A stretch of DNA of 64,000 nt, taken from assembly GCF_000422645.1 (NCBI RefSeq), contig NZ_AUGL01000008.1, positions 124,001-188,000 of the forward strand. Reading direction: 5' to 3'. Source of the stretch: Ferrimonas futtsuensis DSM 18154. Lineage in GTDB: Bacteria > Pseudomonadota > Gammaproteobacteria > Enterobacterales > Shewanellaceae. A program made the position numbers and the translations under genes. The notes beneath the pieces were generated by a model. It was not told the DNA's origin and searched no databases. It saw nothing but the letters and a program-made list of their open reading frames with translations. Below are positions 34,970 through 48,560 of this stretch, piece by piece. Every line of letters starts with the position of its first letter. Position 1 is the stretch's first letter.

Positions 34970-35965
34970 TTAGACGGGGCTGAAGAGGTGATTTTCGCCT
35001 AGCGGCTTGCCTCCCGGGTTCATCCACCACTCCTTGTACTCCTTAAATGTCATGCCGCTGGCGTGTACGAACCTCTTTGTGACAGAGCTTTGGCTGCGTA
35101 TTCCGAATTCGTGCATCACCGCCTTCACATTCCAGTTGTGCCGAACAACAGCCTGCTGCATCCTGGAAAAAATCGCCGCATTAACCATCTTAAGAGGGGT
35201 TTCTCCCTGTTGTCGCAACACTATTTCCAGATGCCGACGTGAGCAACCCAGCATCAGGGACAACTGCTCTACATTGAGGCATTCGAAGGGCAGGGAGTTC
35301 AGTGCTGCCTGAACCTGCCTGATTATGCCAATGCGCTTACCCAGGCAACCTGCGCCGGGCAGAGCCCTACTGCCGTCAGGGCCGTTGATAGTGAATTCGA
35401 AGGCATCGCCGTCAAATTCCGCGTGTTGCAGGCAGGGCTTGTCTCCTCCATAAAACCTCCCTCCAAGTGGCAGCTTCAGTGTCATTGAACTTGGTTTCAG
35501 CCCGGCATAACGCATCATCAACTGCAGGAAGATGATCATGTTCAAGTCACTGTATTTACCCACCAGGTCCTTCCTTGCATGGGTGTGGGAGAGCTTCAGG
35601 GATGTGCCGTCGCAGGCAATGGATAGGTTGGGGTTGGCAATGGTTGAAGAGTAAACCAATAAGTATCGACACATTGAGGAGAGGGCAAGGTTATCTTGAC
35701 CGACAATATTGGGTAACACGGGGTGGGTTGAGGAGGCCATTCTGTGGAGGTGGTTCGTAAAAAACTTATCGTTGCCCGTTTCCTCCTCCATGACTTGAAA
35801 TATTCTGTTTGCGGTGAGTTTACCTATTGGCTCTAAGTCATGCAGTTGCAGAATATGATTATAAGGTTTAAGCCTGGATACCCCTATCTCTCTGCCCGAT
35901 TTCAACAGTGATTTTACGGAGATGGCTGGAGAGATTTCGTATTGCATTAGGCATCCATGGAGCAT
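34970..35965 (-). CDS. AraC/XylS-family transcriptional regulator
   Basis: 331 residues; a second ATG at 35947 is an alternative start, and neither has a strong ribosome site. The N-terminal 200 residues are like the ligand-binding region of AraC regulators of the arabinose-binding type. The C-terminal AraC helix-turn-helix pair spans about 230-320 (NVEQLSLMLGCSRRHLEIVLR and the second helix near VKAVMHEFGIRSQSSVTKRF, given by key residues). First gene inside the block bounded by the direct repeats; it probably regulates a neighbouring cytochrome gene. Confidence 0.85.
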   Translation of the reverse strand: MLHGCLMQYEISPAISVKSLLKSGREIGVSRLKPYNHILQLHDLEPIGKLTANRIFQVMEEETGNDKFFTNHLHRMASSTHPVLPNIVGQDNLALSSMCRYLLVYSSTIANPNLSIACDGTSLKLSHTHARKDLVGKYSDLNMIIFLQLMMRYAGLKPSSMTLKLPLGGRFYGGDKPCLQHAEFDGDAFEFTINGPDGSRALPGAGCLGKRIGIIRQVQAALNSLPFECLNVEQLSLMLGCSRRHLEIVLRQQGETPLKMVNAAIFSRMQQAVVRHNWNVKAVMHEFGIRSQSSVTKRFVHASGMTFKEYKEWWMNPGGKPLGENHLFSPV

Positions 35966-36114
35966 AAGCCGGAATATATCACCTGACTCTAGCTAAGGAG
36001 GTGGGGGTCACCAACTGTGACTTTACACAGACTTGTGGTCTTTATGTCCTGCATCACCGAAACAATCAACTGGCAACCATGTTTACCGCAGGTCTATTTG
36101 TAGCTATGGCACCG

Positions 36115-36144
36115 ATAGAAAAAGGCGCTTCATCGAAGCGCCTT
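36115..36144 (-). terminator. terminator after first octahaem gene
   Basis: 10-bp stem AAGGCGCTTC/GAAGCGCCTT with an ATC loop. The minus-strand reading is followed by five T residues. Confidence 0.88.
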
Positions 36145-36178
36145 AGAAAACTCAACTAGCGATAATTAGCTGCATCGA

Positions 36179-37996
36179 TTATTGAGTGCTTGCATCCAGG
36201 AATCTTTGGTAGCGCTTCTCACCTTCGATGAGCTTGTTACGTTCTTCATCACTGAATACGCCGGGAGTGGGGAACTCTGAGCTATGGCAGCTTGAACAGG
36301 CGTTAGGCATGATGTCGAATTGAGTGCATTGCTTCATGTTCGGCGGGTAGGCGAAGTTTTCATAGCAATTGCCCATAGCCTGGATGGTCTGCCAGGCCTT
36401 GGTCAGATCCTGCTCCTCATCTGCGCCCTCCTCGGTGAAGGGGAGAAGTGCATCATAAACGGCCAAAGAGTCGGTTGGCGAGTAGGCCTTGAATGAGTGG
36501 CTGCGAATATCATAACGACGTGAGCGCTCAAAACTGTGTTTGCTGAACGGCATGTGACAGTCGATGCATTCAACGCCCAGCATATCGTGGCTGGTCATCT
36601 TGTGAGCCGCATTGTCCTTATCCGTGTGACAGGAGCTGCACAACTGGTCACCCGGCAACTTGAGTTCCTGGGAGTGGGGGTTATGACACGAGCTGCAGGT
36701 CAGTCCGGCTTCACCGTGGGACGATGCCGCGATCTCCTCCGGATGGCTCTTGGAGCCGCGCTTATGGCCGTTACCGATCCAGTTCGCCCTTTCCATATAG
36801 GTGTAGAAGTCGGACAGGTTGTCGCCAACATTGAAATGCTCACCTTTCTCTTCCGGGTTCTCCTCATTGAACTTGTAGGGCAGCTCCAATGCATATGGGA
36901 TAGGCTTGTTGGCTGGCATGCCAGACTGGTGACAGTTGGAGCACTCTGAGCCCTTGTTGTCGCCGGTCAGGTCCGCTGGGTTAACAATGTCCTCTTTGTT
37001 CATAGAGCGGCTGTGCTTGGCTCCGGGGCCGTGGCACTTTTCACAGCCCGTTTCCCAGTGGGCGTCCCAGATATTGGACTCGGTGACCACAGGGAAGCCG
37101 ATAGGCAATTGCTGCCATTTATCAATTTCAAATGCAGTCAAGTGACACTCTGCGCATTTGTTCTCGTAGGAGGATATCGACCTGTACATGCTCCACGTGG
37201 GCTCGGCGATGAATGAACCATCCGGGTTATACCAGAAGTAGGATAGCCAGGTTGTCCATCGCTCGTTTTCGCCGACACCGGTGTCGGGCCAATACACCAA
37301 CGGCAGCACCTGCAGGGAGTTCTTCTCCTGGTCATAGCTGAAGAAATTGATTTGGGTGCGATAGCCTACGGCGTCAATTCTATAGGAGACCTCCTTAGTG
37401 GCATCCACACCGTCATGCAGAGTCACCCAGTATTCATCTCCTTTCATATAGGTGGTGTATTTATGCTGATAGTCGGCATAGACAACCCGGGGCGTATCCT
37501 CTGTGCCCCAGGGCGCGTCGATGGTATGGCCCTCTTCGGTGTAGAGTTTGCGCATCACGGTAGCATGCCGGGTATCTTTCCACTCGTCATACTGACGGCT
37601 GTGACAGGTGGCGCACTCCTTTGAGCCGACAAACTCTCCCCGGCTTAAGGGAGGCAGCTCAGTGTCTTTTTCGAGAACGTTGATGGTAATGGAGGAGCTG
37701 GCCTCCAGCGTACCGTCGGAGATTGTATAAGAGACGGAGATCTCGCCCGGTGGTTGATCTTCCCCGGCGGCATAGAGTACCTGATTGTCTTCGACGGTCA
37801 GGTTGCCGGCTTTAACGACGGTTAGTGTGTCGCCGTCCGGGTCGGTGTCGTTGGCTAGTACATCGATTGATACGGCCTCCCCCTGATAGAGGGTAACCTC
37901 ATCCGGGTTTGCTAAAGGGGCAGAGTTTTTTACCTCAACCGGGCTGTCATCACTGCCATTGCACCCAAAAAGCAATGGAATCAAAGCAGCACACAA
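36179..37996 (-). CDS. octahaem c-type cytochrome lipoprotein; start region frameshifted
   Basis: The open frame encodes 605 residues with eight CXXCH haem sites (CATCH, CAECH, CEKCH, CSNCH, CSSCH, CSSCH, CIDCH, CSSCH). A cadherin-like module (LANDTDPDGDTLTV) follows the FGC lipobox near the N-terminus. The frame opens only at TTG 37996, which leaves a signal peptide without its basic start. The proper start ATG-ATG-ATG at 38021-38013 (AGGA upstream) is one base out of frame across an A8 run (38005-38012). With A7 the protein would begin MMMKKINLLCAALIPLLFGC, like its paralogue. It is thus phase-variable, slippage-dependent, inactive, or a sequence error. Substrate unknown. Confidence 0.85.
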   Translation of the reverse strand: MCAALIPLLFGCNGSDDSPVEVKNSAPLANPDEVTLYQGEAVSIDVLANDTDPDGDTLTVVKAGNLTVEDNQVLYAAGEDQPPGEISVSYTISDGTLEASSSITINVLEKDTELPPLSRGEFVGSKECATCHSRQYDEWKDTRHATVMRKLYTEEGHTIDAPWGTEDTPRVVYADYQHKYTTYMKGDEYWVTLHDGVDATKEVSYRIDAVGYRTQINFFSYDQEKNSLQVLPLVYWPDTGVGENERWTTWLSYFWYNPDGSFIAEPTWSMYRSISSYENKCAECHLTAFEIDKWQQLPIGFPVVTESNIWDAHWETGCEKCHGPGAKHSRSMNKEDIVNPADLTGDNKGSECSNCHQSGMPANKPIPYALELPYKFNEENPEEKGEHFNVGDNLSDFYTYMERANWIGNGHKRGSKSHPEEIAASSHGEAGLTCSSCHNPHSQELKLPGDQLCSSCHTDKDNAAHKMTSHDMLGVECIDCHMPFSKHSFERSRRYDIRSHSFKAYSPTDSLAVYDALLPFTEEGADEEQDLTKAWQTIQAMGNCYENFAYPPNMKQCTQFDIMPNACSSCHSSEFPTPGVFSDEERNKLIEGEKRYQRFLDASTQ

Positions 37997-38004
37997 TAGG
38001 TTTA

Positions 38005-38012
38005 TTTTTTTT
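38005..38012 (-). repeat. A8 homopolymer in the octahaem gene leader
   Basis: Eight A residues (T8 on the plus strand) directly after the ATG triplet. The paralogous gene has seven at the same place and is in frame. Confidence 0.9.
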
Positions 38013-38021
38013 CATCATCAT

Positions 38022-38360
38022 TCCTGTGAAAATATTAAATGGCAATCTGCATGTCTGCAGTTTGCTATTACATTTTTCCGCTGGGTTGATTTGAAGGCAA
38101 ACGCAAAACTTTTCCGATTCGCGAACGGTGTGGCGTTGATCGCTTAACCAGTTCACAAATTTATGTTTGATTCGATAGTGAAAACAGTAGCGGATAAAAA
38201 GAGAGGTTTGGCATCTATATATAGTGTCTATTTTTATCCATTGGACGATGAGTTCAAGGTTAAAATGATTCACTTTTTGGCGAGGTTTTTGTGAATGTTC
38301 AGGCGTCATTTCGCTACTGAGATCTAAGCTTATGTCATTCAGATAGACAATGACGCCGAA
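38022..38360. other. AT-rich upstream region of first octahaem gene
   Basis: About 340 bases without a supported gene. It contains the inverted repeat GGCGTCATT (38302-38310) / AATGACGCC (38349-38357), with an inner TGTC/GACA pair, which could be an operator or structured leader. The promoter of the leftward gene should lie here. Confidence 0.45.
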
Positions 38361-38393
38361 TACAAAAAAGGGCAGCGGCTGATGCCGCTGCCC
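38361..38393 (-). terminator. terminator after second octahaem gene
   Basis: Perfect 10-bp stem GGGCAGCGGC/GCCGCTGCCC with a TGAT loop. The minus-strand reading ends in six T residues. Confidence 0.92.
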
Positions 38394-38428
38394 TGAATTA
38401 CCCACTTTTAGGGTTAGGTAAGAAGGTG

Positions 38429-40348
38429 TTACTTCTGCTGGTCCAGGAAGCGCTGGTAGCGCTCTGTGCCTTCAACCAGTTTGGCGCGTTCGGTCTCGTC
38501 GAACACCCCAGGCTTGGGATATTCATCGTCGTGACAGTCGCTGCAGGCATTGGGCAGGACATCGAAGTAATCACACACCTGGCTCGGGCGGAAGATTCCG
38601 TCGCTGTAACACACTCCATTGGCGCCACCCATCATCTGGATGTAGTTCCACCAGTTGGTCATCACGGGATCGGTGCCTTCACCACGGGAGTAGGGGGCAA
38701 GGGCATCGAAGTTGGCCAGGGACTCGGCCGGGCTGATGGCATCGAAGCTGTGGTTGTCGTTGCTCCAGCGGTTGGCGACCGATTCGGTGGCGACGAAGTG
38801 ACAGTCGACGCAGGAGACACCCACCATGTCGTGGATTGGCAGGGTGTGGTTGGTGCCGCGGTCCTGGTGACATTGGGTGCACAGAGCATCTCCCTCTTTC
38901 TGCATGCCCATGGCGTGAGGGTCATGACAGGTCACGCAGTCGATCTGCATCTCGAAGTGCTTGGAGGTCATGTAGGTGGCCACCTGATTCTTCTGCCCCT
39001 TGGGGTAGTCGGTGCCAAGGAACACGTCCTGGGTATCCACTTCGGTAAACAGGCTCAGGTCATCGCCGGTTCGGTAGTGCTTTCCGGGGTTGGTGGTGAT
39101 GTTGCCATCTTCATCGAACTCAGGCAGGTAGGGCTGAGAGTAGTGGTAGATGTCCGGATGCTTGGCCATCTGGTGGCATTGGGCGCAGGAATCCACGGAT
39201 TGCTGGAAGCTCATCTTGCCCGGGTTGGTGATGTCGTCGCCCCTCATGCTGGTGGCGTGAATGGAGCCCTCGTTGTGGCAGCGTTCGCAACTAATGCCAT
39301 CCTCTACCGCATCGGAGTCTTTGGAGTTGGTGTGAGCAGCCAGCATGGTGTATTTTTCGCTGACGTCCCACCCCTCAACATTGCCGCCAGTGGTGTGACA
39401 GGTGAAGCACTGGTTGTCCCAGCTCATCTTCTTAAGTTCTTCACGCTGGTCGATGGGGCCAGCAGGCGGGAAGTATGACATAACCATCTCGCCGTCTTTG
39501 ACCAGGCTGCCGTCCTGGTTCCAGAAAATCCCGGTGGTGTAGAACGAAGTGAACCGGGCCACATCGCCTTTATTATACCAGGCAAAGGGCATCATCCGGC
39601 CATAACTGCTCTCCACGTTGGGATCGTTGTCGGAGGGGAAGTCGTAGCTGACGAACTGCTTGGAGACGGTGCTGGAGATGCCGTCGATACGGTACACCGC
39701 AGACTCGTCAGTATTGACGGCATCGTGCAGTTCGGCGTAGTACTTACCATCGGCCCCTTTATAGGTGGAGAACTCCATATTGGGTTTGCCATAAATGGTG
39801 TGACGCTTGGGGTCGGCCTCGGTGCCCCAATCCAGTTCCGGGATGATCGCCTCAATGGTCTTGTTTTCCTTGGTGTAGAGGCGACGGTAATCCTGGGCGT
39901 GCTTGGTCGGTTGCCAATCGTTGTAGTGGCTGGAGTGGCAGCTCTTACAGGTTTTGGCGGTAACGAAAGTGGCCTCGGTCGGCTCGATGACGCCATCCTC
40001 TACGGTGATGTAGACGGTTCCCTTGGTTTGGTTCTCACCGTCGGAGACGGTGTAGCTGAAGCTGGACTCGCCCAGGGGGGCATCGGCTGCGGCACTGAAA
40101 CTCAGTTTGCCATCTCCGGTGATGGTCAGATCGCTGGACACTATGGTCAGGGTGTCGCCATCGGCGTCGGTGTCGTTGGCCAGGGCATCGATCACCAGAG
40201 TGTCGCCACGGTTTATGGTGGCGTAATCGGGCTGGGTGACCGGAGCTCGGTTGTCAGGCAGTTGTATTATCTTGTTGTTGTCATCACTGCCACAGCCAAC
40301 CAGGCCCACTGACAGTGCCAGCATGAGGGGCGTAGTTTTTTTCATCAT
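38429..40348 (-). CDS. octahaem c-type cytochrome lipoprotein with cadherin-like domain
   Basis: 639 residues from the ATG at 40348 (AGGA upstream; GTG at 40351 also possible). A lipoprotein signal ends at LVGC. A cadherin/Ig-like module (DALANDTDADGDTLTI) spans about 35-115. Eight haem motifs follow: CKSCH, CFTCH, CERCH, CAQCH, CVTCH, CTQCH, CVDCH, CSDCH. The CKSCHSSHYNDWQPTKHA pattern is like cytochrome c554/multihaem respiratory cytochromes. It is a paralogue of the gene at 36179-37996 throughout, including the shared C-terminus (KPGVFDETER, RYQRFLD). Probably a lipid-anchored periplasmic or surface electron carrier; acceptor unknown. Confidence 0.9.
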   Translation of the reverse strand: MMKKTTPLMLALSVGLVGCGSDDNNKIIQLPDNRAPVTQPDYATINRGDTLVIDALANDTDADGDTLTIVSSDLTITGDGKLSFSAAADAPLGESSFSYTVSDGENQTKGTVYITVEDGVIEPTEATFVTAKTCKSCHSSHYNDWQPTKHAQDYRRLYTKENKTIEAIIPELDWGTEADPKRHTIYGKPNMEFSTYKGADGKYYAELHDAVNTDESAVYRIDGISSTVSKQFVSYDFPSDNDPNVESSYGRMMPFAWYNKGDVARFTSFYTTGIFWNQDGSLVKDGEMVMSYFPPAGPIDQREELKKMSWDNQCFTCHTTGGNVEGWDVSEKYTMLAAHTNSKDSDAVEDGISCERCHNEGSIHATSMRGDDITNPGKMSFQQSVDSCAQCHQMAKHPDIYHYSQPYLPEFDEDGNITTNPGKHYRTGDDLSLFTEVDTQDVFLGTDYPKGQKNQVATYMTSKHFEMQIDCVTCHDPHAMGMQKEGDALCTQCHQDRGTNHTLPIHDMVGVSCVDCHFVATESVANRWSNDNHSFDAISPAESLANFDALAPYSRGEGTDPVMTNWWNYIQMMGGANGVCYSDGIFRPSQVCDYFDVLPNACSDCHDDEYPKPGVFDETERAKLVEGTERYQRFLDQQK

Positions 40349-40351
40349 CAC

Positions 40352-40797
40352 TTGGTTATCCTTTTTTGCGCATTTTTCTTTGCAAATAGATCGTATCGTG
40401 GAAAGGCACGGGCGCTGAGTGAGCGCGCTGACAGAGATTCATGGGTAGGGTGTCGCCTGGGTCGAGGCGTGACATTTCTTTTACAAATCTGCATCTGGAG
40501 CGAAACGGTTTCACTTTCAGGGTTTGAATAGGCCGGCTAGGTCACGGGCTGTAGGTCGTCGGTTGGCTACCGACGTCAAAAAGTGGAGAGGTTCTCCAAT
40601 CGGTTGGGAAGGGGCGTGGTTGTTAATAATCCTCTCTTAAAATCAATGTCTTCAGTATGTTGCTGCTATTTGCTGGTGATGCCGTTCGTGAGGTAAAGGG
40701 TGAAATTTTTAGATTCATCGACGCGGGTGAATTCGCCTTGCCAACGAATCGAATGTAGAGTCCACTGCCACAGAGTTATCAAGCTAAGGGGCCAGTA
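40352..40797. promoter_or_regulatory. divergent regulatory region between octahaem and TetR genes
   Basis: 446 bases between divergent genes with no coding frame. At 40502-40512 lies the palindrome GAAAC-G-GTTTC, a candidate operator. A small hairpin CGTCGGT-TGGCT-ACCGACG lies near 40558-40576. The divergent TetR regulator may act here, as is common for the family. Confidence 0.45.
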
Positions 40798-41508
40798 ATG
40801 GAAAACGACAATGCTCGAAAGTTGAAAGTAGCTAAAACTGCATTAGGAATGATTCGGGAATGCGGTTACTTGCAGTTTACTATGAATGATCTTAGTAAGG
40901 CCGCGAATGTTTCTCCTGGTACATTATATCGAACTTTCCCATCTAAAGATGACCTGCTCGTTTATCTGTTCGGATCTGTTGTTGGATCCTTGAGAGCATC
41001 ATTAAGAATGTTTGATCGTATGGACCTCTCTGAAAGAGAAAAAGTGATTTGCCGAATCTGCTATCAGTATTATATTCGAAGCTATAACCCAGATCTTTCA
41101 TCCCTGGACTTGATCGGTACAAATTCTGCGATTTTTAACCAGGCATCTCAGGAAACCAGGAATCGATTCAAAGAGATTTTTTATGAGACAACTCAGTGGC
41201 AGGCCGCTAACTTCACCAATTTGGTTCTCACGGGGAAATTGATTTCGAGTGAAGAGGAGCTGAAAAAGACCATTAAACGGCTGATAGTAATTTCCAGAGG
41301 CGGAATGGTTATAGCAAATCATATATTTATTGAGAAAGAGATGTATCAGATAGAAGATCTGATGGAGTTTTGTGATTTGGTCCTGGAGCAGTTGACTTGG
41401 ATTGGGGACGAGGGACGATGTGATTTTAGACTTATTCTATTGGCGATGCGTACCGTTCGCGACAAGTCAGCATCTGGTCATTCATCTCAGTTTCCTTTTG
41501 CCAGTTAA
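40798..41508 (+). CDS. TetR-family regulator, copy 1
   Basis: 236 residues. The N-terminal TetR helix-turn-helix (TMNDLSKAANVSPGTLYRTF) is clear, with the usual SKDDLLVYLF extension; the C-terminal ligand domain is not recognised. It is closely related over most of its length to the regulator at 47690, sharing LYRTF.SKDDLLVYLF, SLDLIGTN.AIFNQA and GRGGMVI.NH-like segments. The coding sequence is distinctly AT-rich against the rest of the window, suggesting foreign origin. It sits divergent from the second octahaem gene and upstream of the first tetrahaem gene. Confidence 0.88.
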   Translation: MENDNARKLKVAKTALGMIRECGYLQFTMNDLSKAANVSPGTLYRTFPSKDDLLVYLFGSVVGSLRASLRMFDRMDLSEREKVICRICYQYYIRSYNPDLSSLDLIGTNSAIFNQASQETRNRFKEIFYETTQWQAANFTNLVLTGKLISSEEELKKTIKRLIVISRGGMVIANHIFIEKEMYQIEDLMEFCDLVLEQLTWIGDEGRCDFRLILLAMRTVRDKSASGHSSQFPFAS

Positions 41509-41954
41509 CGCTATTTATATAGTTATTTCATAGGGTTGTATTCGATTTTTGATTCTTCCAAATGGGACTTGTAATGATCGGCGGATTAATCTTTGGGCTC
41601 CCTCTGATTTTTGCTGGCTGTCTGATGATGAGTACGGTGGAGAAACTCTCCATTTCCCTGATCTCACTCGTGCGTTAGTGAGGTGTTGATCAATGAGGGG
41701 GAGCGAGAAAGTGAAAAAGTATTCTAGTTAGTGTGGCGGAAACGTTATCCCCTTAGAAAAAAGCATGAGGATAAGCGTTTTACACTTTTGGTGAGAAGCC
41801 TCTAGCGGTAAAAAACGTGGTCGAATTTACAATATTTGGTGCTGGTAGATACTGAGTCGCTCTAAGTTGACAGAGGCTCAGTCTATCGTTTTTCCCTAAG
41901 TTACATTGGATTCGCTTATATGCCTGTCCAGGGATTTGTAGTATCAAAATTTGG
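41509..41954. other. 446-base gap upstream of tetrahaem gene, with possible 38-codon ORF
   Basis: AT-rich leader region. A short frame at 41562-41678 would encode a 38-residue hydrophobic peptide (starting MGLVMIGGLIFGLPLIFAGC), but its ribosome site is weak. GGAAACGTTATCC near 41738 is a partial palindrome. No clear promoter was assigned. Confidence 0.3.
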
Positions 41955-43931
41955 ATGATGATTATGAGACCATGTAGACTCGCGCAACTGTGCGCGTCAT
42001 ATCTGTTATTGGCTACGCTGACCGCTTGCGGTGGCTCCGATGGTGATGAATCAACGGCTCCGGAAGTGCCCCCGGTAGAGCCGCCAGCAGGCAGCAAACC
42101 CCACCAATCACTGGATATTGTGCAGCCACAAAAGGCCAGTTTCGACGGTGAGATCACCATCTATCTGGGCAGGTGGTACCCCTGTATGGAGCGTGAATAC
42201 AAGGGTGACGGTGTCGACATCAGTCAATATTGCACCGGTGATGAGCCCCCAACGCCGATGGGTGAATACGCGGATAACGAGTTTAACCGCAATAAAATTA
42301 CCCCGGATGATAGTAAGTACATCTTCAAGGTGAAGGCCGATGACATCAAGGCCTATGCGGCACAGCCTGACTCCCCCATTCCCCTTCGCCCCGATGTCTA
42401 TGCTGAAGGCCATTTCTCTGTAATGGATGTGGTGCTCTATGCCTCTCACGTCCGCGACGACCTGGATGTGAAAGCCATCTGGAGTGAGGAACTCGGCACC
42501 CATCTGCTCAGCACCGCCTGGGACACCGATGGCGATGGCACCCTGTCTGAAGCCGAATTGAATAACCGGAGCACCGACTGGTACCCCTCCTACATCTGGC
42601 ACGACGGAGAGTTCGATCGCCTCCAAGGCACCCCAAACCTGGAGACAGTCTATGTTCGCGCCGACCTAGGCCTGGCCAAGAGCAAGATGCGCATCCGCAT
42701 CCAGCCATACAATTCCGCCGTGACCGAGCGTCGTAACATGCAGTTCAAGCTGCAAGCGGATCGTAGGCGAGCAAACGGCGATAAAGTCATTGTGCCGTTG
42801 GTGTGGGCAATTGATGCCCAGGGCAATGACGTGGTGAAAGTTCAAAATCTGGAGGTGACCGCCCACGACCTTCGCACCGACATCTTTCAGCCCGGCGTGA
42901 TCACATCCATGGATGTGTGGCTGTCGCTTCAGGACCAGGGATTGGCCGATGTGCGCTTCACCTATTGGGGCACCATGTCGACGGAAGCGGAAGTTAACAA
43001 CTACGCGTTAACGTCCGTCAATGGCCTGCGTGCCCAGGGAATGGTGGGCTGGGCTGCGGCAACCGGCGAAATGTTTACAACTCAGGACTTCTTCCTGGAT
43101 GACCTGGAATGGCCAACCCCCAGTGCACTGATGGCAGCCGACAGAGGGGAAGGCGATCCTAAGCTCAAGGGCAAGTGTCAGTGGATGCATGGCGGTCAGG
43201 GCCATACCATCGAATCCGCCCAAATCTGTATCGACGAGTGGTATAACAAGTTTGGTGGATTCATGGACCACGACATGCCTGATCAGGAGGTCATGCACTA
43301 TCCAAAGGGAGTGATTTTTGCTGGCTATCAGACGTGGATGCCTGGCCAGTTTGACATCACCGAACGCCATTTCGTCGATGAAGATGGAGACTATGAAAAC
43401 CAGGTAATCGCCGACATCAATGACGCCATTGCGCCTTTGACCGACGATCACTTTGGTTGGGGAATTGCCGACTGCCGCAACTGTCACGATGATGTGCATA
43501 AGGGCTCACTGGGGGTAGAGCAGCCCTATGAGTGTGCCGCTTGTCACGGCAGCAATGGCGCCATGAAGGGGCATGGTGAAGTCAGCCGCTGCTTCTGGTG
43601 TCATACCGAAGACAATCAGATGGCTCACCACGGTTCGGCATCGGGTTTCATGAAGTTTGGTGACGTTGAGTGCCAGGGTACCAGCGTGACCGGTTTGAAC
43701 CTCGATGGTATGCAAGAGGGTTCTTGTGCCAATGCAGTGAATACCCTGGATGCAGAGCGCCTTGCTGGTCCTAATGGCGAGTGGGGGGGCATTAAGCAGC
43801 CCATCCATGACCAGGCGGATAACCTGCAGTATTACGGAGCCGGTGAACGTACGGGTATCAACAGCGACTGGCACAACAGTGAGGACTTCCCTGATCCTTA
43901 CTCCTGTGTGACCTGTCATCCCAACGACTAG
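41955..43931 (+). CDS. tetrahaem c-type cytochrome lipoprotein, copy 1
   Basis: 658 residues from ATG 41955; a later ATG at 41964 is equally plausible. Lipoprotein signal ends at LTAC, followed by GGSDGDES and a Pro-rich linker. A long non-haem domain (about 60-480) includes an EF-hand-like loop DTDGDGTLSEAE. Four haem motifs cluster in the last 170 residues: CRNCH, CAACH, CFWCH, CVTCH. The C-terminal layout, with HFGWGIADC before the first haem and FPDPYSCVTCH at the end, is repeated in the gene at 44349. The architecture recalls surface multihaem lipoproteins but is not MtrC/OmcA. Substrate unknown. Confidence 0.85.
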   Translation: MMIMRPCRLAQLCASYLLLATLTACGGSDGDESTAPEVPPVEPPAGSKPHQSLDIVQPQKASFDGEITIYLGRWYPCMEREYKGDGVDISQYCTGDEPPTPMGEYADNEFNRNKITPDDSKYIFKVKADDIKAYAAQPDSPIPLRPDVYAEGHFSVMDVVLYASHVRDDLDVKAIWSEELGTHLLSTAWDTDGDGTLSEAELNNRSTDWYPSYIWHDGEFDRLQGTPNLETVYVRADLGLAKSKMRIRIQPYNSAVTERRNMQFKLQADRRRANGDKVIVPLVWAIDAQGNDVVKVQNLEVTAHDLRTDIFQPGVITSMDVWLSLQDQGLADVRFTYWGTMSTEAEVNNYALTSVNGLRAQGMVGWAAATGEMFTTQDFFLDDLEWPTPSALMAADRGEGDPKLKGKCQWMHGGQGHTIESAQICIDEWYNKFGGFMDHDMPDQEVMHYPKGVIFAGYQTWMPGQFDITERHFVDEDGDYENQVIADINDAIAPLTDDHFGWGIADCRNCHDDVHKGSLGVEQPYECAACHGSNGAMKGHGEVSRCFWCHTEDNQMAHHGSASGFMKFGDVECQGTSVTGLNLDGMQEGSCANAVNTLDAERLAGPNGEWGGIKQPIHDQADNLQYYGAGERTGINSDWHNSEDFPDPYSCVTCHPND

Positions 43932-44010
43932 TGCCAGGAATCTGAGTTAAGCAATTGTTAGACGATGATATTTGTCTTGACTGAGAAGAATGAGCTCAGA
44001 ATAAAATAGA

Positions 44011-44039
44011 AGGCATACCAATGTTGGTATGCCCTTTTT
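44011..44039 (+). terminator. terminator after tetrahaem gene 1
   Basis: 10-bp stem GGCATACCAA/TTGGTATGCC with a minimal TG loop, followed by TTTTT. Confidence 0.9.
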
Positions 44040-44268
44040 GACGATACGCCTGATTATTTGGACTGCGATTCACCCTAAGGTGACAAAAGGTTGGTATTGA
44101 CGACTTGCTTTTAATGGTTGCCAGGAAGGTAAAATCGGAACATGTAAAGATGTTCCTTCTTTATAACTCTGATGCAGTGCTACTTGGTGTAGCCTTTCAT
44201 TGAAGTTAATGGAGCAGTAGCGAGGAGATGCAATCCTACTTCTGAATTGCTGTCCATAACGAGGTGTA
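44040..44268. other. intergenic region with small dyad
   Basis: About 230 bases between convergent cytochrome genes. GGAACAT-GTAAAG-ATGTTCC at 44137-44156 is a perfect 7-bp hairpin without a T run. Nothing else was recognised. Confidence 0.4.
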
Positions 44269-44300
44269 TAGAAAAGCCAGTTGTCATTGACAACTGGCTT
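44269..44300 (-). terminator. terminator after tetrahaem gene 2
   Basis: 13-bp palindromic stem AAGCCAGTTGTCA/TGACAACTGGCTT; the minus-strand reading ends in TTTT. Confidence 0.8.
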
Positions 44301-44348
44301 AATTAACAGCCGTTAACCGATCTTCATTCGGCTCACAGGTAGTGCGAT

Positions 44349-46385
44349 TTACTGCTTATCTTGGTGGCAGGTACCACAGGAGAATGGGTCTGGGAATTTC
44401 TTGGTGAAGTCATAATCATTGTTTGAAGACACCCAGCGATCGCCATAGCCTTTTTCGTCTCCTTCCAGGACTTCACTATGGTTGTCGGAGAATCCATACA
44501 TATTGTTGTCATCTCCTGCTTTGCGACGCGTGGTAACTGTATTAATCCAGTTATCTTCATGTTTCAGCAGCTTGCGAGTGCTGGCTGGTCCATGATTCTT
44601 GGGTAACTTGTCTTCTGAGTGGCACCAGAAACAGCGAGCTTCCCGTCCATGGGCTTCGGGAGCACCATTATTGCCATGGCAAGTGGAACAGTAGTAGGGC
44701 TGGATTTCATCGAATCCGTCTGCTGCATTCACAGGCCAGGAGTAGCCGCCATGCCCCAGAGGCGCTGCCTCTTCGTTATGGCATAGGGCGCAGTCAGCCA
44801 CTTTCCAGCCAAAGTGGTTTTCGTTCAACAGGGGAGCCTTGCCATTCTGACTTTCTTCTGTTGCTGGAGTCAGGGTGCGCAAAGTTACGATGTCAGAGTC
44901 AATGAAGCCTGTCTTAACGCCTTTTTCCACAAGCGCATTATGACGCCAGTTGTAATCCCACTGGATGGTTTCGTTTTTTGAAACGCTATCGATCTTGGTT
45001 CCGAGGCTATGGTAACCGGCATTGTTTAGATCTTGTTTCGACAAAACTACATTTTCGGCACCAAAAGGCATCATCCACAGATCGTTGTTGATGTTTCCGA
45101 AAAAGCCTCCGATGCCAAATGCACTCCAGAAGTCTCGCACGCAATCTGTCATTGGCACTGGGGTGTTGATCGTATCGGAGCGACCCGTGACCGCATCAAA
45201 GTTACAGACCCCTGGTATGCGGTCTGAGAAAAAGATGTCTTTGCCGAACTCGTTCAGGACAGAAGTGGTGGTGACGAAGGAGCGCAGCCCTATGGTTTTA
45301 CCCAGTTCAGGGGCACGGGATAAGGCGAAGGAGTTAACAATAGCGCCAGTCTCCAGGGTTGGCCACCAGGTGAGCCTGAAGTCGTGTCCCATATCAGCCA
45401 AGGTCAAAAATACGTCCATGTTAGTAATGACGCCCTCTTGGTACACGTCACTCCTAAGGTTGTGTGCCTTGACCTCAATGTTTGTCGCAATTGGGTTTTC
45501 CGGGTCGTCGCTCCAGCCAATCCAGTCTACAATGACTTTTCCATTGTTCGAGGCCAGGCGCTCTGCTTCACTCTTCCAGAGGTGTTTCAGGCGGGCCTTG
45601 AAGGATGAAGAGGCGTCAATGAAGCGAATGCGTTGTTCCTCTTTCACCAAGAACATATCCATTCTATTGAACGGAATCTCCCCGCTATGGTCTCTGTACA
45701 ACCCGGCCTTGCCCATGCTCTGGGTGAATCTAAAGTGCCAGTTACTTGACTCCTCTCCTTCATCGCTAAAGCTGCCATTTCCGTTTCGATCGTAGGCTAA
45801 AGTGAACTCATGCGTATTGTAGTCAGAGTTTTCTGGAGTAATGATCTCTCCTACGAACTTCATGTCGTCACGAGTTGCGACCATATAGCGCAGCAGGTCA
45901 AAAACAGAGTAGCTTCCCTCTTTGAATATGTCTGGCCTCGCTGTTCCTGCGCCCAGACCGTCGGGATTCGTTGACAATACTCGATGAATATCTTCGGCTG
46001 CGACTCGAGATATGTCTGTCTGTTGATTAATGACACCGGCAAGGTTTGCATCGAGGGCATTGACAAATCCGTCGCCATTAACGTCTGTGTTACATGGATG
46101 GGTGACGTTATCTGGCAATGTCATGCAGAATTTGCTTGAGTCCATGGTGATCCCGCGGATCCACTTCCATACTTGCTCGTTCATGTAGTCAAAGGTCACA
46201 TTGACATGGCCTGTTAATCCACTGGTATCGAGTGCCATTTTACCGCTTTCAACATATTGCCAAGCGGGGTTATCTGGAGTTGGGTCCGGCCCGGGGCCAG
46301 GTGTTGCGGTCGTAGAGCTGTCAGAGCCACAACCTGCAAGCATTAATGCGAGTAGGCCAGATAGTGCCTTTTTGTTTTTGATCAT
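44349..46385 (-). CDS. tetrahaem c-type cytochrome lipoprotein, copy 2
   Basis: 678 residues from the ATG at 46385, chosen because GGAG lies 9 bases upstream and it yields the lipoprotein signal MIKNKKALSGLLALMLAGC. The N-terminal domain has two acidic calcium-loop-like motifs (DVNGDGFVNALDA, dockerin-like; YDRNGNGSFSDE, EF-hand-like). Four haem motifs are near the C-terminus: CALCH, CSTCH, CFWCH, CGTCH. HFGWKVADC, CFWCHSEDK and FPDPFSCGTCH parallel the paralogue at 41955. Base use is more AT-rich than that paralogue. Convergent with it and divergent from a LuxR-type gene. Confidence 0.87.
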   Translation of the reverse strand: MIKNKKALSGLLALMLAGCGSDSSTTATPGPGPDPTPDNPAWQYVESGKMALDTSGLTGHVNVTFDYMNEQVWKWIRGITMDSSKFCMTLPDNVTHPCNTDVNGDGFVNALDANLAGVINQQTDISRVAAEDIHRVLSTNPDGLGAGTARPDIFKEGSYSVFDLLRYMVATRDDMKFVGEIITPENSDYNTHEFTLAYDRNGNGSFSDEGEESSNWHFRFTQSMGKAGLYRDHSGEIPFNRMDMFLVKEEQRIRFIDASSSFKARLKHLWKSEAERLASNNGKVIVDWIGWSDDPENPIATNIEVKAHNLRSDVYQEGVITNMDVFLTLADMGHDFRLTWWPTLETGAIVNSFALSRAPELGKTIGLRSFVTTTSVLNEFGKDIFFSDRIPGVCNFDAVTGRSDTINTPVPMTDCVRDFWSAFGIGGFFGNINNDLWMMPFGAENVVLSKQDLNNAGYHSLGTKIDSVSKNETIQWDYNWRHNALVEKGVKTGFIDSDIVTLRTLTPATEESQNGKAPLLNENHFGWKVADCALCHNEEAAPLGHGGYSWPVNAADGFDEIQPYYCSTCHGNNGAPEAHGREARCFWCHSEDKLPKNHGPASTRKLLKHEDNWINTVTTRRKAGDDNNMYGFSDNHSEVLEGDEKGYGDRWVSSNNDYDFTKKFPDPFSCGTCHQDKQ

Positions 46386-46699
46386 CGATCGATTCTCCAT
46401 TTTTGACCAAGAGTCAACTTTTGGCTTTGCCATACGGATTCTAATTATTATGGCGATAATGAGATTGAATATGACCGAACCATTTGATTTTAGGTCATAT
46501 TTGATCTCAGTTTTTTATAAAATGGTTTGGATTTGTCTTTTATGGAAATTATTTTGTGTAAAATTGAATCTAAATCTGACTTGCATAAATTCCATAGTGT
46601 CTTTAACACTCTGGATTGCTTATAACCAGAATTTTGCTCTCTAGATTGAACCATAGAGCCAATATGCTAAATGACTTCGGTGGAAGTTTGATCGAGGCG
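46386..46699. promoter_or_regulatory. AT-rich region between tetrahaem gene 2 and LuxR-type gene
   Basis: 314 bases, strikingly AT-rich. The inverted repeat ATATGACC (46469-46476) / GGTCATAT (46493-46500), with a 16-base spacer, lies about 85 bases upstream of the tetrahaem gene start and is a plausible operator. Confidence 0.45.
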
Positions 46700-47284
46700 T
46701 TACACCCAGCCCAAATTTCTGGCCTCGAAGATTAAGTTAGGCTTGTTGATTGCGCCAATTTTCTGCTTCGCAACAGACAGGTGATAATCGACCCCTCGAT
46801 TTGTTAGATGCAACACATCGGCAATTTCACTGGCGCTTAGACCCAACGCGGTCATTTTGACAACCTGAAGGGTTTTTAACTTCAACTCTTCGGGAACTTG
46901 TCCAGCATGATTGTTTTTTACGATGGTGTTACGTACCAGGCTTAATGCATCTTGAGTCGAGAAGCGTTCAAGGTTGTGACACAGCATTGTGTTCGAGACG
47001 ACAACTAGATAGCCCATCAGGATGGGTTGATCAGACGAAAAAACAGAGTAAGACTTTACTGATAAGGTGTGTCCTCCTATGGTGATTTTGCCCGATCCTT
47101 TAAGACAGTCTTTAAGCCCAAGAGCAATGCCCGCACCGGCTTTTCTCAGCTTATGGTCGGACACTGAAATGGCTGTTACTAGTGATTGATCTATTTCATT
47201 TAAATGAATCTCAACCACCCGCGTCGGGTAGGAGAGATGCTCATTACCTGCACTGAAAAATACCCAGCCTAATTCTGATTGCAT
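46700..47284 (-). CDS. LuxR-type helix-turn-helix regulator
   Basis: 194 residues from the ATG at 47284, which has GGAGG six bases upstream. The C-terminal 60 residues form a LuxR/GerE helix-turn-helix (VVKMTALGLSASEIADVLHL, then TNRGVDYHLSVAKQKIGA). The N-terminal 125 residues are not recognised and lack a receiver phosphorylation site, so it is not a classical response regulator. It may control the adjacent tetrahaem gene. Its own upstream region contains two CRP-like sites. Confidence 0.8.
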   Translation of the reverse strand: MQSELGWVFFSAGNEHLSYPTRVVEIHLNEIDQSLVTAISVSDHKLRKAGAGIALGLKDCLKGSGKITIGGHTLSVKSYSVFSSDQPILMGYLVVVSNTMLCHNLERFSTQDALSLVRNTIVKNNHAGQVPEELKLKTLQVVKMTALGLSASEIADVLHLTNRGVDYHLSVAKQKIGAINKPNLIFEARNLGWV

Positions 47285-47394
47285 AACCATCCTCCGATAG
47301 CGGCATTTGATGGCTGTCATTGTAGGAAAAACCTAAATCCGATTTCGGAGTGCCATTCGCAAGATTCACAGGGGTGATAACAGAGCCTTGGTGG

Positions 47395-47410
47395 TGTGAT
47401 CGGTGTCACG
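47395..47410. promoter_or_regulatory. CRP-like site 1
   Basis: TGTGA-TCGGTG-TCACG matches nine of ten conserved bases of TGTGA-N6-TCACA. It lies between divergent regulator genes. Confidence 0.65.
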
Positions 47411-47457
47411 CTTCGGTTTGTCGAGGTGAATGTTTCATACGGAGTCGGCGCCTTGGA

Positions 47458-47473
47458 TGTGATCAGCGTCACG
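47458..47473. promoter_or_regulatory. CRP-like site 2
   Basis: TGTGA-TCAGCG-TCACG matches nine of ten conserved bases. It is 63 bases from site 1, close to six helical turns, so both would lie on the same DNA face. Confidence 0.65.
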
Positions 47474-47689
47474 CTCTGTGTGTTATCACATCTGCCATCC
47501 CAGTTCGAAGTGGAGAGTTTCTCCATTTTTGGGGAGCGACAGGCGCTTGATCTGATTACAAGATTAATTCTTTTAAATCAGGCGCTTATGTGTGAGCTCT
47601 GTATTTTGAATCAAGAGGTGGATGGAGTTTTTGCCATTCAGGGCCAAATTAGCCGCAGCTGAGTTCAGTGTTATAGTGGAGCCATACGA

Positions 47690-48433
47690 GTGATGGAGCA
47701 ACGCTCCTATCTGCACGAGAACGCAACACTGGACGTTACAATGTTTAATAAAGCTCAGATAAGAAAGGTTAAAATTGCCAAAGCCGCCATGAGGTTGATC
47801 AGAGAGCAGGGCTATTTGCAGTTCTCGATGAATGAGCTTGCCAAAGAGGTGGAGGTAACCGCTGGCACTTTATATCGCACCTTTGCCTCTAAAGATGATT
47901 TGCTGGTTTATCTGTTCAGTTCGGTCATAGAAACTCTAGCCGAGTCAATGTATAAGTTTGGCAGGATGGATCTGTCAACAAAGGAAAAAATTGTCTGTTG
48001 TCACTGCTACCAGTTTTACTTGAGACAGTTCTACCCAGACAGCGCGTCACTGGATCTTATAGGTACCAATAAGGCGATATTCAATCAGGCCCGGCCGGAA
48101 ACCAGAGAAAAGTTCAAGCGCATTTTTGATATGTCCACGATAAGATTTAAGAAGCAGTTTTCGGACTTGGTCGATAGCGGTAAGGTCAAAGCGGATAAGG
48201 AGCTTCTATTTCAGGTGCTTCGGCAGATGACTTTAATCGGTCGTGGGGGGATGGTGATATCCAACCATGTGTTTATTCCTCAGGACACATTTAAGATTGA
48301 AGACCTGATCAGTCTGTGTTGCCATACGCTGGATCAATTGGATTGGCAAGGAGATGAGGGTAGGGCGGATAAAAGACTTATTTTGCTGGCATTGCGCTCT
48401 GAAGTTGAGCAATCAGTGTCAGAACTTTGGTAA
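47690..48433 (+). CDS. TetR-family regulator, copy 2
   Basis: 247 residues from GTG 47690 (GGAG at 8 bases). An ATG at 47741 would align better with the start of copy 1 at 40798, so the true start is uncertain. The TetR helix-turn-helix is SMNELAKEVEVTAGTLYRTF. The remainder aligns with copy 1 almost end to end, showing an intra-locus duplication. Codon use is AT-rich. It is the last gene before the right copy of the flanking repeat. Confidence 0.87.
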   Translation: MMEQRSYLHENATLDVTMFNKAQIRKVKIAKAAMRLIREQGYLQFSMNELAKEVEVTAGTLYRTFASKDDLLVYLFSSVIETLAESMYKFGRMDLSTKEKIVCCHCYQFYLRQFYPDSASLDLIGTNKAIFNQARPETREKFKRIFDMSTIRFKKQFSDLVDSGKVKADKELLFQVLRQMTLIGRGGMVISNHVFIPQDTFKIEDLISLCCHTLDQLDWQGDEGRADKRLILLALRSEVEQSVSELW

Positions 48434-48560
48434 TGGTAACCAGAATCCTTAGTCACCGCCTATATCTTTAGGCAACGTTACACGGTCATTCTACTTCAAT
48501 GTGCTGTTCATGCCCTTTTGAACTTATCCTTACTGGATAATATTGCGTCGGTTACAAGCG

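Follow-up and report, generated by a model that had tools for sequence, protein, structure and literature searches.

Tetrahaem lipoproteins paired with LuxR-type regulators, and an orphan Mtr-type conduit that may serve them, in Ferrimonas and Shewanella

The usual picture of an Mtr-type conduit is a fixed machine of three parts. According to passages in two papers, MtrCAB occurs in all Ferrimonas assemblies examined, together with modular accessory cytochromes (PMC8805035), and dmsEFAB is also found in the genus (PMC9732548). Those passages make no mention of a LuxR-paired cytochrome family or of an orphan conduit pair, and neither a LuxR-paired tetrahaem lipoprotein family nor such a pair is described in the titles and abstract openings that searches of open-licence papers returned. 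The present analysis concerns a system of this kind, seen from a block at positions 34970-48433 of a 64,000-nucleotide stretch of Ferrimonas futtsuensis DSM 18154 (contig NZ_AUGL01000008.1, positions 124,001 to 188,000), hereafter the window; the genome is a 4.30 Mb draft in 39 contigs. The original prediction, made from the sequence of the window, assigned to the block two octahaem and two tetrahaem lipoproteins, two TetR-type regulators, one AraC-type and one LuxR-type, and the genes, their order, the paralogous pairs and the 8, 8, 4 and 4 CXXCH motifs agree with it. It took one node for the whole, however: what recurs across the genome, as the unit, is a tetrahaem lipoprotein together with a LuxR switch. 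These units are apparently served by one orphan Mtr-type conduit, and the larger system around the block is apparently undescribed.

It is fairly likely that the tetrahaem proteins are exchangeable surface electron-transfer tips of that conduit, mostly switched by LuxR-type regulators, with a layer of TetR control added in this block. The block would then be one cassette, spread horizontally, of a modular system for Mtr-type extracellular electron transfer. To cross the outer membrane, electrons would use a decahaem/MtrB-porin pair encoded elsewhere in the genome, and exchangeable lipid-anchored tetrahaem proteins would take them up at the surface, the large and variable N-terminal domain serving as the acceptor-facing part. 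For most tetrahaem genes the switch would be an adjacent LuxR-type regulator of their own, probably responsive to a ligand, and the two TetR proteins with one shared palindromic operator would form a common layer that covers the octahaem genes too.

The two tetrahaem lipoproteins of the block, TetraA (41955-43931, forward strand) and TetraB (44349-46433, reverse strand), belong to one family and are 28% identical; that divergence, and the scatter of members over genomes, rules out local duplication as the origin of the pair. Matches at E ≤ 0.001 were found in eight of 60 sampled genomes, the source genome included, all of them Ferrimonas, one of which (G007) holds a fragment only. Genes were called with our own script or taken from mechanical lists of open reading frames (ORFs), and the stretches fetched from seven Ferrimonas genomes contain 60 full-length tetrahaem genes: 7 in this genome, then 13, 17, 8, 8, 6, and 1 in F. 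sediminicola. The family was present in 19 of 152 Shewanellaceae genomes (E ≤ 1e-20), and in three Ferrimonas only among 394 genomes spread over the order; with eight and three candidates scored per genome in the respective scans, these are minimum gene numbers, and the family may have been overlooked in some genomes. A contig scan over 84,980 species with two short peptide patterns, not an exhaustive search, returned 55 loci, 52 of them in Ferrimonas or Shewanella. The remaining three are contigs of metagenome-assembled genomes (L157, L158 and L159) with only a short three- or four-haem piece; their proteins, of 103-132 residues, resemble the tetrahaem haem module alone and are a possible source of that module. 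No tetrahaem relatives were found in the viral contigs searched.

When proteins of 500 residues or more are counted as full-length, and those with different last 300 residues as distinct, the searches give 99 members of the family, every one with exactly four CXXCH motifs; three family fragments were excluded from these full-length counts. A simple lipobox pattern fits 97 of the 99, and with a relaxed pattern the residue at +2 after the lipobox cysteine is glycine in 88 and aspartate in four. TetraA recurs in Shewanella atlantica and in isolate N1E18-Z at 91-92% protein identity. A second copy in the source genome (L052:8341-10368) is 98% identical in protein and 95% in DNA over 2,029 bp, a length that covers the gene plus roughly 50 bp upstream. 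Tetrahaem genes thus move. The second copy adjoins another TetR gene and a LuxR-tetrahaem pair.

A LuxR-type gene lies within 1 kb of the tetrahaem gene in 86 of the 99 cases and within 300 bp in 80. The arrangement varies among the 86 neighbours: 48 lie downstream on the same strand, 24 upstream on the same strand and 14 on the other strand. The window example (46700-47320, reverse strand) is upstream of TetraB and co-directional with it. Conversely, 87 of 95 distinct LuxR-profile matches (118 of 129 before repeats were removed) lie within 1 kb of a tetrahaem gene, in stretches chosen around tetrahaem genes and with a profile built from LuxR hits in those same stretches. As a whole-genome control, the source genome has 20 GerE matches, five of which adjoin tetrahaem genes (on C6, C4 and C7, and two on C12). 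Distance matrices of the two partners correlate with a Mantel r of 0.79 over 81 pairs of distinct regulators within 400 bp; none of 2000 permutations reached this value (best 0.17), although the correlation derives in part from the pairs' shared descent across species, orthologous pairs of different species being included. It had been proposed that each haem class stands beside its own regulators; over the 99 relatives the rule is instead tetrahaem plus LuxR, and octahaems with TetR are an extra layer of some clusters.

A GerE domain was recognised in 57 of 61 LuxR members at E ≤ 0.01, and an autoinducer-binding domain was not among the Pfam families that they matched. The predicted structure of the window LuxR (predicted local distance difference test, pLDDT, 83.3) matches RhlR (E 7e-6), VqmA, QscR and SdiA, with 28 matches at E ≤ 0.001. 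Whole-chain template-modelling (TM) scores are near 0.3, and part of this signal is the common DNA-binding domain. Since these are its structural relatives, the regulator is probably ligand-responsive.

The original prediction noted the absence of MtrA, MtrB and CymA. MtrA and MtrB are indeed absent from the block, but three MtrA/MtrB-type pairs and a CymA-sized gene occur elsewhere in the genome, which rules out a host that lacks a conduit. One pair belongs to an MtrCAB cluster, with MtrC/OmcA-type genes and a four-haem gene of CymA size on the same contig; a second is DmsEFAB-like by size and order; the third, on contig C10, is an orphan, recognised by homology and by its ten CXXCH motifs. 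The corresponding pair of S. atlantica consists of a decahaem protein (TIGR03508, 320 bits) and a porin (TIGR03509, 416 bits; MtrB_PioB, E 1e-159). A tree was built from 52 MtrB proteins, 48 of them taken from 14 Ferrimonas genomes and four from Shewanella; in it the ten orphans form one clade and the 14 MtrCAB porins another, each with support of 100/99; the orphan clade lies next to MtrB and apart from the DMS-type porins.

Co-occurrence is the strongest evidence that the orphan conduit serves the tetrahaem proteins. In Ferrimonas the pair is present in six of the seven genomes with an intact tetrahaem gene and in none of the seven without, whose porins have MtrC-type, DmsA-size or other multihaem genes as neighbours. 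Both the tetrahaem family and the orphan pair are absent from F. balearica, the type species. With an orphan-MtrB profile, 18 of the 152 Shewanellaceae genomes score 857-1203 bits and the next best 683 (each genome being represented by its highest score, and one genome that had no match being unlisted). Ten of the 18 had supplied the profile and eight were not used in building it. The conduit is thus found in 18 of 19 tetrahaem-bearing genomes and in none of 133 others, with a Fisher value of 2e-22 that overstates independence because the genomes are related; outside Ferrimonas the figures are 12 of 12 and 0 of 126. In S. atlantica a few kilobases separate the pair from TetraA and from clustered tetrahaem and octahaem genes, S. 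canadensis and isolate N1E18-Z have a similar layout, and in S. benthica the pair stands beside a tetrahaem gene. Among the 18 genomes the distance is at most 5 kb in seven and about 11 kb in an eighth, all eight being Shewanella; it is 15 to 24 kb in G001, G002 and G011, and in the remaining seven, the source genome included, the two are on different contigs.

The orphan pair has no evident partner of the usual kinds. At ten orphan loci no ten-haem protein of MtrC size was listed within 6.5 kb, as far as the stretches reach, and at ten further loci no MtrC-type gene was near in nine, the tenth contig (G142) being little more than the porin. An ORF of DmsA size was not seen directly beside any orphan porin, whereas 23 rows classed as DMS-type, by ORF size and order only, have one of 791-878 residues within 64 bp. 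Genes for an ABC transporter (ABC permease) are kept upstream of the orphan pair in both Ferrimonas and Shewanella (L192, 4923-11055; L107, 1-4915). The MtrB tree has a fourth clade of five rows (L207, L209, L212, L214 and L223) from Ferrimonas without intact tetrahaem genes, adjoining an 11-haem protein of 815-893 residues and further multihaem genes. Identical or near-identical duplicates of DMS-type porins occur in F. balearica (G013; L224 and L225) and in G001 (L229).

TetraA has an N-terminal region of about 420 residues with an internal repeat, followed by a C-terminal four-haem module. In its predicted structure (mean pLDDT 82.8; predicted TM score 0.86) the region between about residue 50 and residue 470 is for the most part predicted with confidence, and the haem module comes after it. 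A motif of the type RPD-F--G--S--D-L occurs twice within the N-terminal region, and profile comparison relates the two parts with a probability of 93.5% (E 2e-7). In TetraA and TetraB this region matched no Pfam domain beyond weak calcium-loop hits. The calcium-loop domain that had been proposed is weak in both: an EF-hand match in TetraA reaches E 0.15, and a Dockerin match in TetraB (E 2e-4) falls just under the cut-off, with Dockerin_1 matched by 15 of 70 relatives. A cadherin-like module can be dismissed as a mark of the family, since it is seen in the octahaems and none of the 70 tetrahaem relatives had it among their family matches. PF22113, the MtrC/OmcA haem domain, gives 11 bits in TetraB and nothing in TetraA, and nine of the 70 relatives match at E ≤ 0.01. 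The tetrahaem alignment, with a mean column identity of 24%, yielded no matches at E ≤ 1 when its profile was compared with solved structures. The leading structural hits of the TetraA model are to USP7, with query TM scores below 0.1; a transcobalamin beta-domain and a putative metal-binding protein (E 0.5-1.4) are leads only. All 99 members have at least one non-motif histidine ahead of haem 1 and in each gap between successive haems (1-2, 2-3 and 3-4), enough for putative bis-His ligation of all four haems. Domain searches recognised no catalytic domain in the block cytochromes or the tetrahaem relatives.

Eighteen hand-picked neighbours of tetrahaem genes, judged by eye from their first 60 residues, look mostly generic, with a recurring Lon-like protease. 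Three neighbours (L085:4178-6565, L100:9377-11785 and L058:5434-7236) look by eye like TonB-dependent receptors. At L084:9440-11749 in F. kyonanensis, an 837-residue tetrahaem protein with LuxR and TetR is followed by a 769-residue protein with a Tat-like signal, by eye possibly a molybdoenzyme.

The block itself is a real island and no chance assembly: positions 34993-48435 are 91.6% identical to F. sediminum across 13,468 bp, the thiolase gene to the right matches its F. sediminum counterpart at 78.9% identity, and the 1 kb to the left has no match to the F. sediminum stretch compared. Its left edge is an AraC-type gene (34970-35965, reverse strand; HTH_AraC, E 6e-8) with an orthologue at the equivalent place in F. 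sediminum. The TetR genes are TetR1 (40798-41508, forward strand; TetR_N, E 1e-11) and TetR2 (47690-48433, forward strand; E 2e-14). The guanine-plus-cytosine (GC) contents of the block's TetR and LuxR genes are 41%, 45% and 45%, that of the AraC gene is 51%, and that of the window 58%.

There are three exact copies of the palindrome TGGAGA-N3-TCTCCA in the window, all of them between genes and within the block: between OctB and TetR1 (40584-40598), upstream of TetraA (41638-41652), and between the LuxR gene and TetR2 (47511-47525). The three sites thus precede TetR1/OctB, TetraA and TetR2/LuxR. Their position and symmetry make the palindrome a probable TetR operator. Only two further exact copies exist in the genome, both inside ORFs (five in total). 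At up to two mismatches the window has 14 matches against 3.1 expected. Among 30 TetR-bearing stretches, some of them overlapping, 12 hold an exact copy and three a one-mismatch copy only. Exact copies belong to this cluster and to its relatives in F. sediminum, F. kyonanensis and F. aestuarii; before a LuxR gene they are found in F. kyonanensis, S. canadensis and two uncultured Shewanella isolates. The arms are kept and the spacers vary. The idea of separately switched modules holds only in part, being weakened by the one palindrome that lies upstream of three transcription starts in the block.

OctA (36179-37996, reverse strand) and OctB (38429-40351, reverse strand) each combine a Big_9 domain, bacterial immunoglobulin (Ig)/cadherin-like (E 3e-13 and 1e-14), with eight CXXCH motifs, and the cadherin-like module attributed to them is thereby confirmed. 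Their haem regions are of the C554/C7/paired-CXXCH type by domain search. PF22113 scores above the cut-off in both (39 bits in OctA and 34 in OctB), in the haem region only. It had also been held that the block cytochromes do not look like MtrC/OmcA, and no window protein matched TIGR03507 at E ≤ 1. In partial alignments the OctB haem region matches PDB 6qvm over 193 residues (E 9e-9) and 6i5b over 70 (E 4e-4), with weaker matches to the nitrite reductase 6v0a (E 0.001) and to MccA, 4rkm (E 0.01). OctB orthologues of 72-93% identity occur in three other Ferrimonas; one of the three (G003) has OctB and a TetR gene without a tetrahaem gene, so that the link between octahaem and system is not a strict one.

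A lipobox-like stretch is present in all four block cytochromes, much as predicted, with a reservation for OctA, whose lipobox frame (36179-38010) has TTG as its only start in this strain. An upstream ATG run with, by eye, a good ribosome site sits in another frame and adjoins eight consecutive A. That ATG run shares its frame with the lipobox in F. sediminum, where the copy is intact. Because of this difference, OctA in the present strain may be frameshifted, may reflect an assembly error, or may be switchable at the run of A.

Several points weigh against the proposal of LuxR-switched tips on an orphan conduit, which is built on sequence and models, with surface exposure, complex formation and reduction all predicted. 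Thirteen of the 99 tetrahaem genes, TetraA included, have no LuxR gene within 1 kb; 12 of these exceptions, among them TetraA and close relatives, lie on stretches with a TetR relative and one on a short contig. A dedicated LuxR sensor is a poor fit to simple mineral respiration. The TetraA model gave 133 matches to solved structures at E ≤ 10 and none at E ≤ 0.001, and the role given to the N-terminal region is a guess. On the side of the conduit, the co-occurrence involves related genomes and a profile built from positive ones, F. sediminicola (G012) has one intact tetrahaem gene and no orphan conduit, and the conduit of the source draft genome lies on another contig than every tetrahaem gene found. 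Linkage in Shewanella means that part of the co-occurrence may be joint transfer. Large ORFs do lie near two orphan pairs, one of 827 residues in G001, 1.6 kb away on the other strand, and one of 832 residues in G144, about 3 kb away. As for the palindrome, sites with at most one mismatch number 69 genome-wide, exact copies included, against five for the reversed pattern, so that only exact copies are telling; 15 of the 30 TetR-bearing stretches have none at up to one mismatch, and on this pattern other TetR lineages must presumably use other sites.

Some of these features would suit a different role, in which the tetrahaems are substrate-specific catalytic terminal reductases for soluble compounds, with a binding or catalytic N-terminal region and a LuxR regulator that senses the compound. 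The large N-terminal domain is variable, as the low column identity of the alignment indicates, regulators stand beside 86 of 99 genes, a genome may have up to 17 paralogues, and the LuxR resembles ligand-binding regulators. Such a role is nevertheless unlikely: the histidine pattern common to all 99 members, if the putative ligation holds, suits bis-His electron-transfer haems better than an open catalytic haem, and no catalytic domain was recognised. It is less likely still that the block cytochromes are alternative outer-membrane cytochromes on an ordinary MtrCAB (or DmsEF-like) conduit and that the orphan pair is only a linked passenger. The source genome does have MtrCAB with a CymA-sized gene on the same contig, as well as a DmsEFAB-like cluster, and a tetrahaem gene is present in F. 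sediminicola, which lacks the orphan pair; yet MtrCAB-type clusters occur in Ferrimonas both with and without tetrahaem genes, whereas the orphan pair tracks the tetrahaems (18 of 19 against 0 of 133), also in drafts that place the two on separate contigs.

The block might, finally, be a mobile cluster kept by transfer and largely silent or decaying. The out-of-frame start of OctA, fragments of 143, 162 and 178 residues in three genomes, and TetR and LuxR genes of 41-45% GC in a 58% GC window would accord with decay. Against it, all four haems are retained throughout the 99 full-length members, 86 of which still have a regulator nearby, the block is 91.6% identical with an intact OctA frame in another species, and the palindrome arms are kept while the spacers vary, which leaves this explanation very improbable.

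The proposal of exchangeable tips can be taken further, though only tentatively, to one wire with many tips: one orphan MtrAB-type conduit might serve up to 17 tetrahaem tips, each chosen by its own LuxR sensor of the acceptor or of a signal that announces it, so that ligand-specific switching would change the outer electronic face of the cell, somewhat in the manner of the paired regulators of nutrient-uptake repertoires. If one conduit does serve a whole set of regulated tips, the acceptor that a marine metal reducer uses would depend on which tip is switched on, and the LuxR partners would be a direct handle for finding the natural acceptors. The analysis adds a cytochrome family with a large N-terminal region, a candidate operator and a co-inherited conduit.

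Among described systems, MtrCAB/OmcA of Shewanella is like this one in that the orphan pair is an MtrA-like decahaem with an MtrB/PioB porin, and the acidic start of the lipoproteins, of Cys-Gly-Ser-Asp type, resembles that of the genome's own MtrC-type protein. It differs in that the orphan conduit lacks an adjacent MtrC/OmcA gene and in that the block lipoproteins carry four or eight haems rather than ten, in dispersed paralogues mostly accompanied by a LuxR gene. DmsEFAB is similar in that TIGR03508, the model of the DmsE family, matches the S. atlantica conduit decahaem above its cut-off and in that DMS-type clusters occur in the same genomes; no DmsA-size gene directly follows the orphan porin, however, and that porin is in a separate clade. 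The OctB haem region aligns in part with 6qvm, which is probably OmhA, and with 6i5b, OcwA; both are surface cytochromes of Gram-positive iron reducers, and OcwA has nine haems. PMC7829351 gives OmhA 11 haems and groups OcwA with the nonahaems, and the 681 residues of 6qvm agree with the OmhA gene coordinates there. Unlike these proteins, OctB has eight haems, an Ig domain, a predicted lipid anchor and a Gram-negative host. The tetrahaem-linked LuxR shares with LuxR solos and with VqmA- and RhlR-type regulators a GerE domain and a predicted fold of ligand-binding type; in contrast to them, it has no Pfam autoinducer-binding match and is linked to a cytochrome gene.

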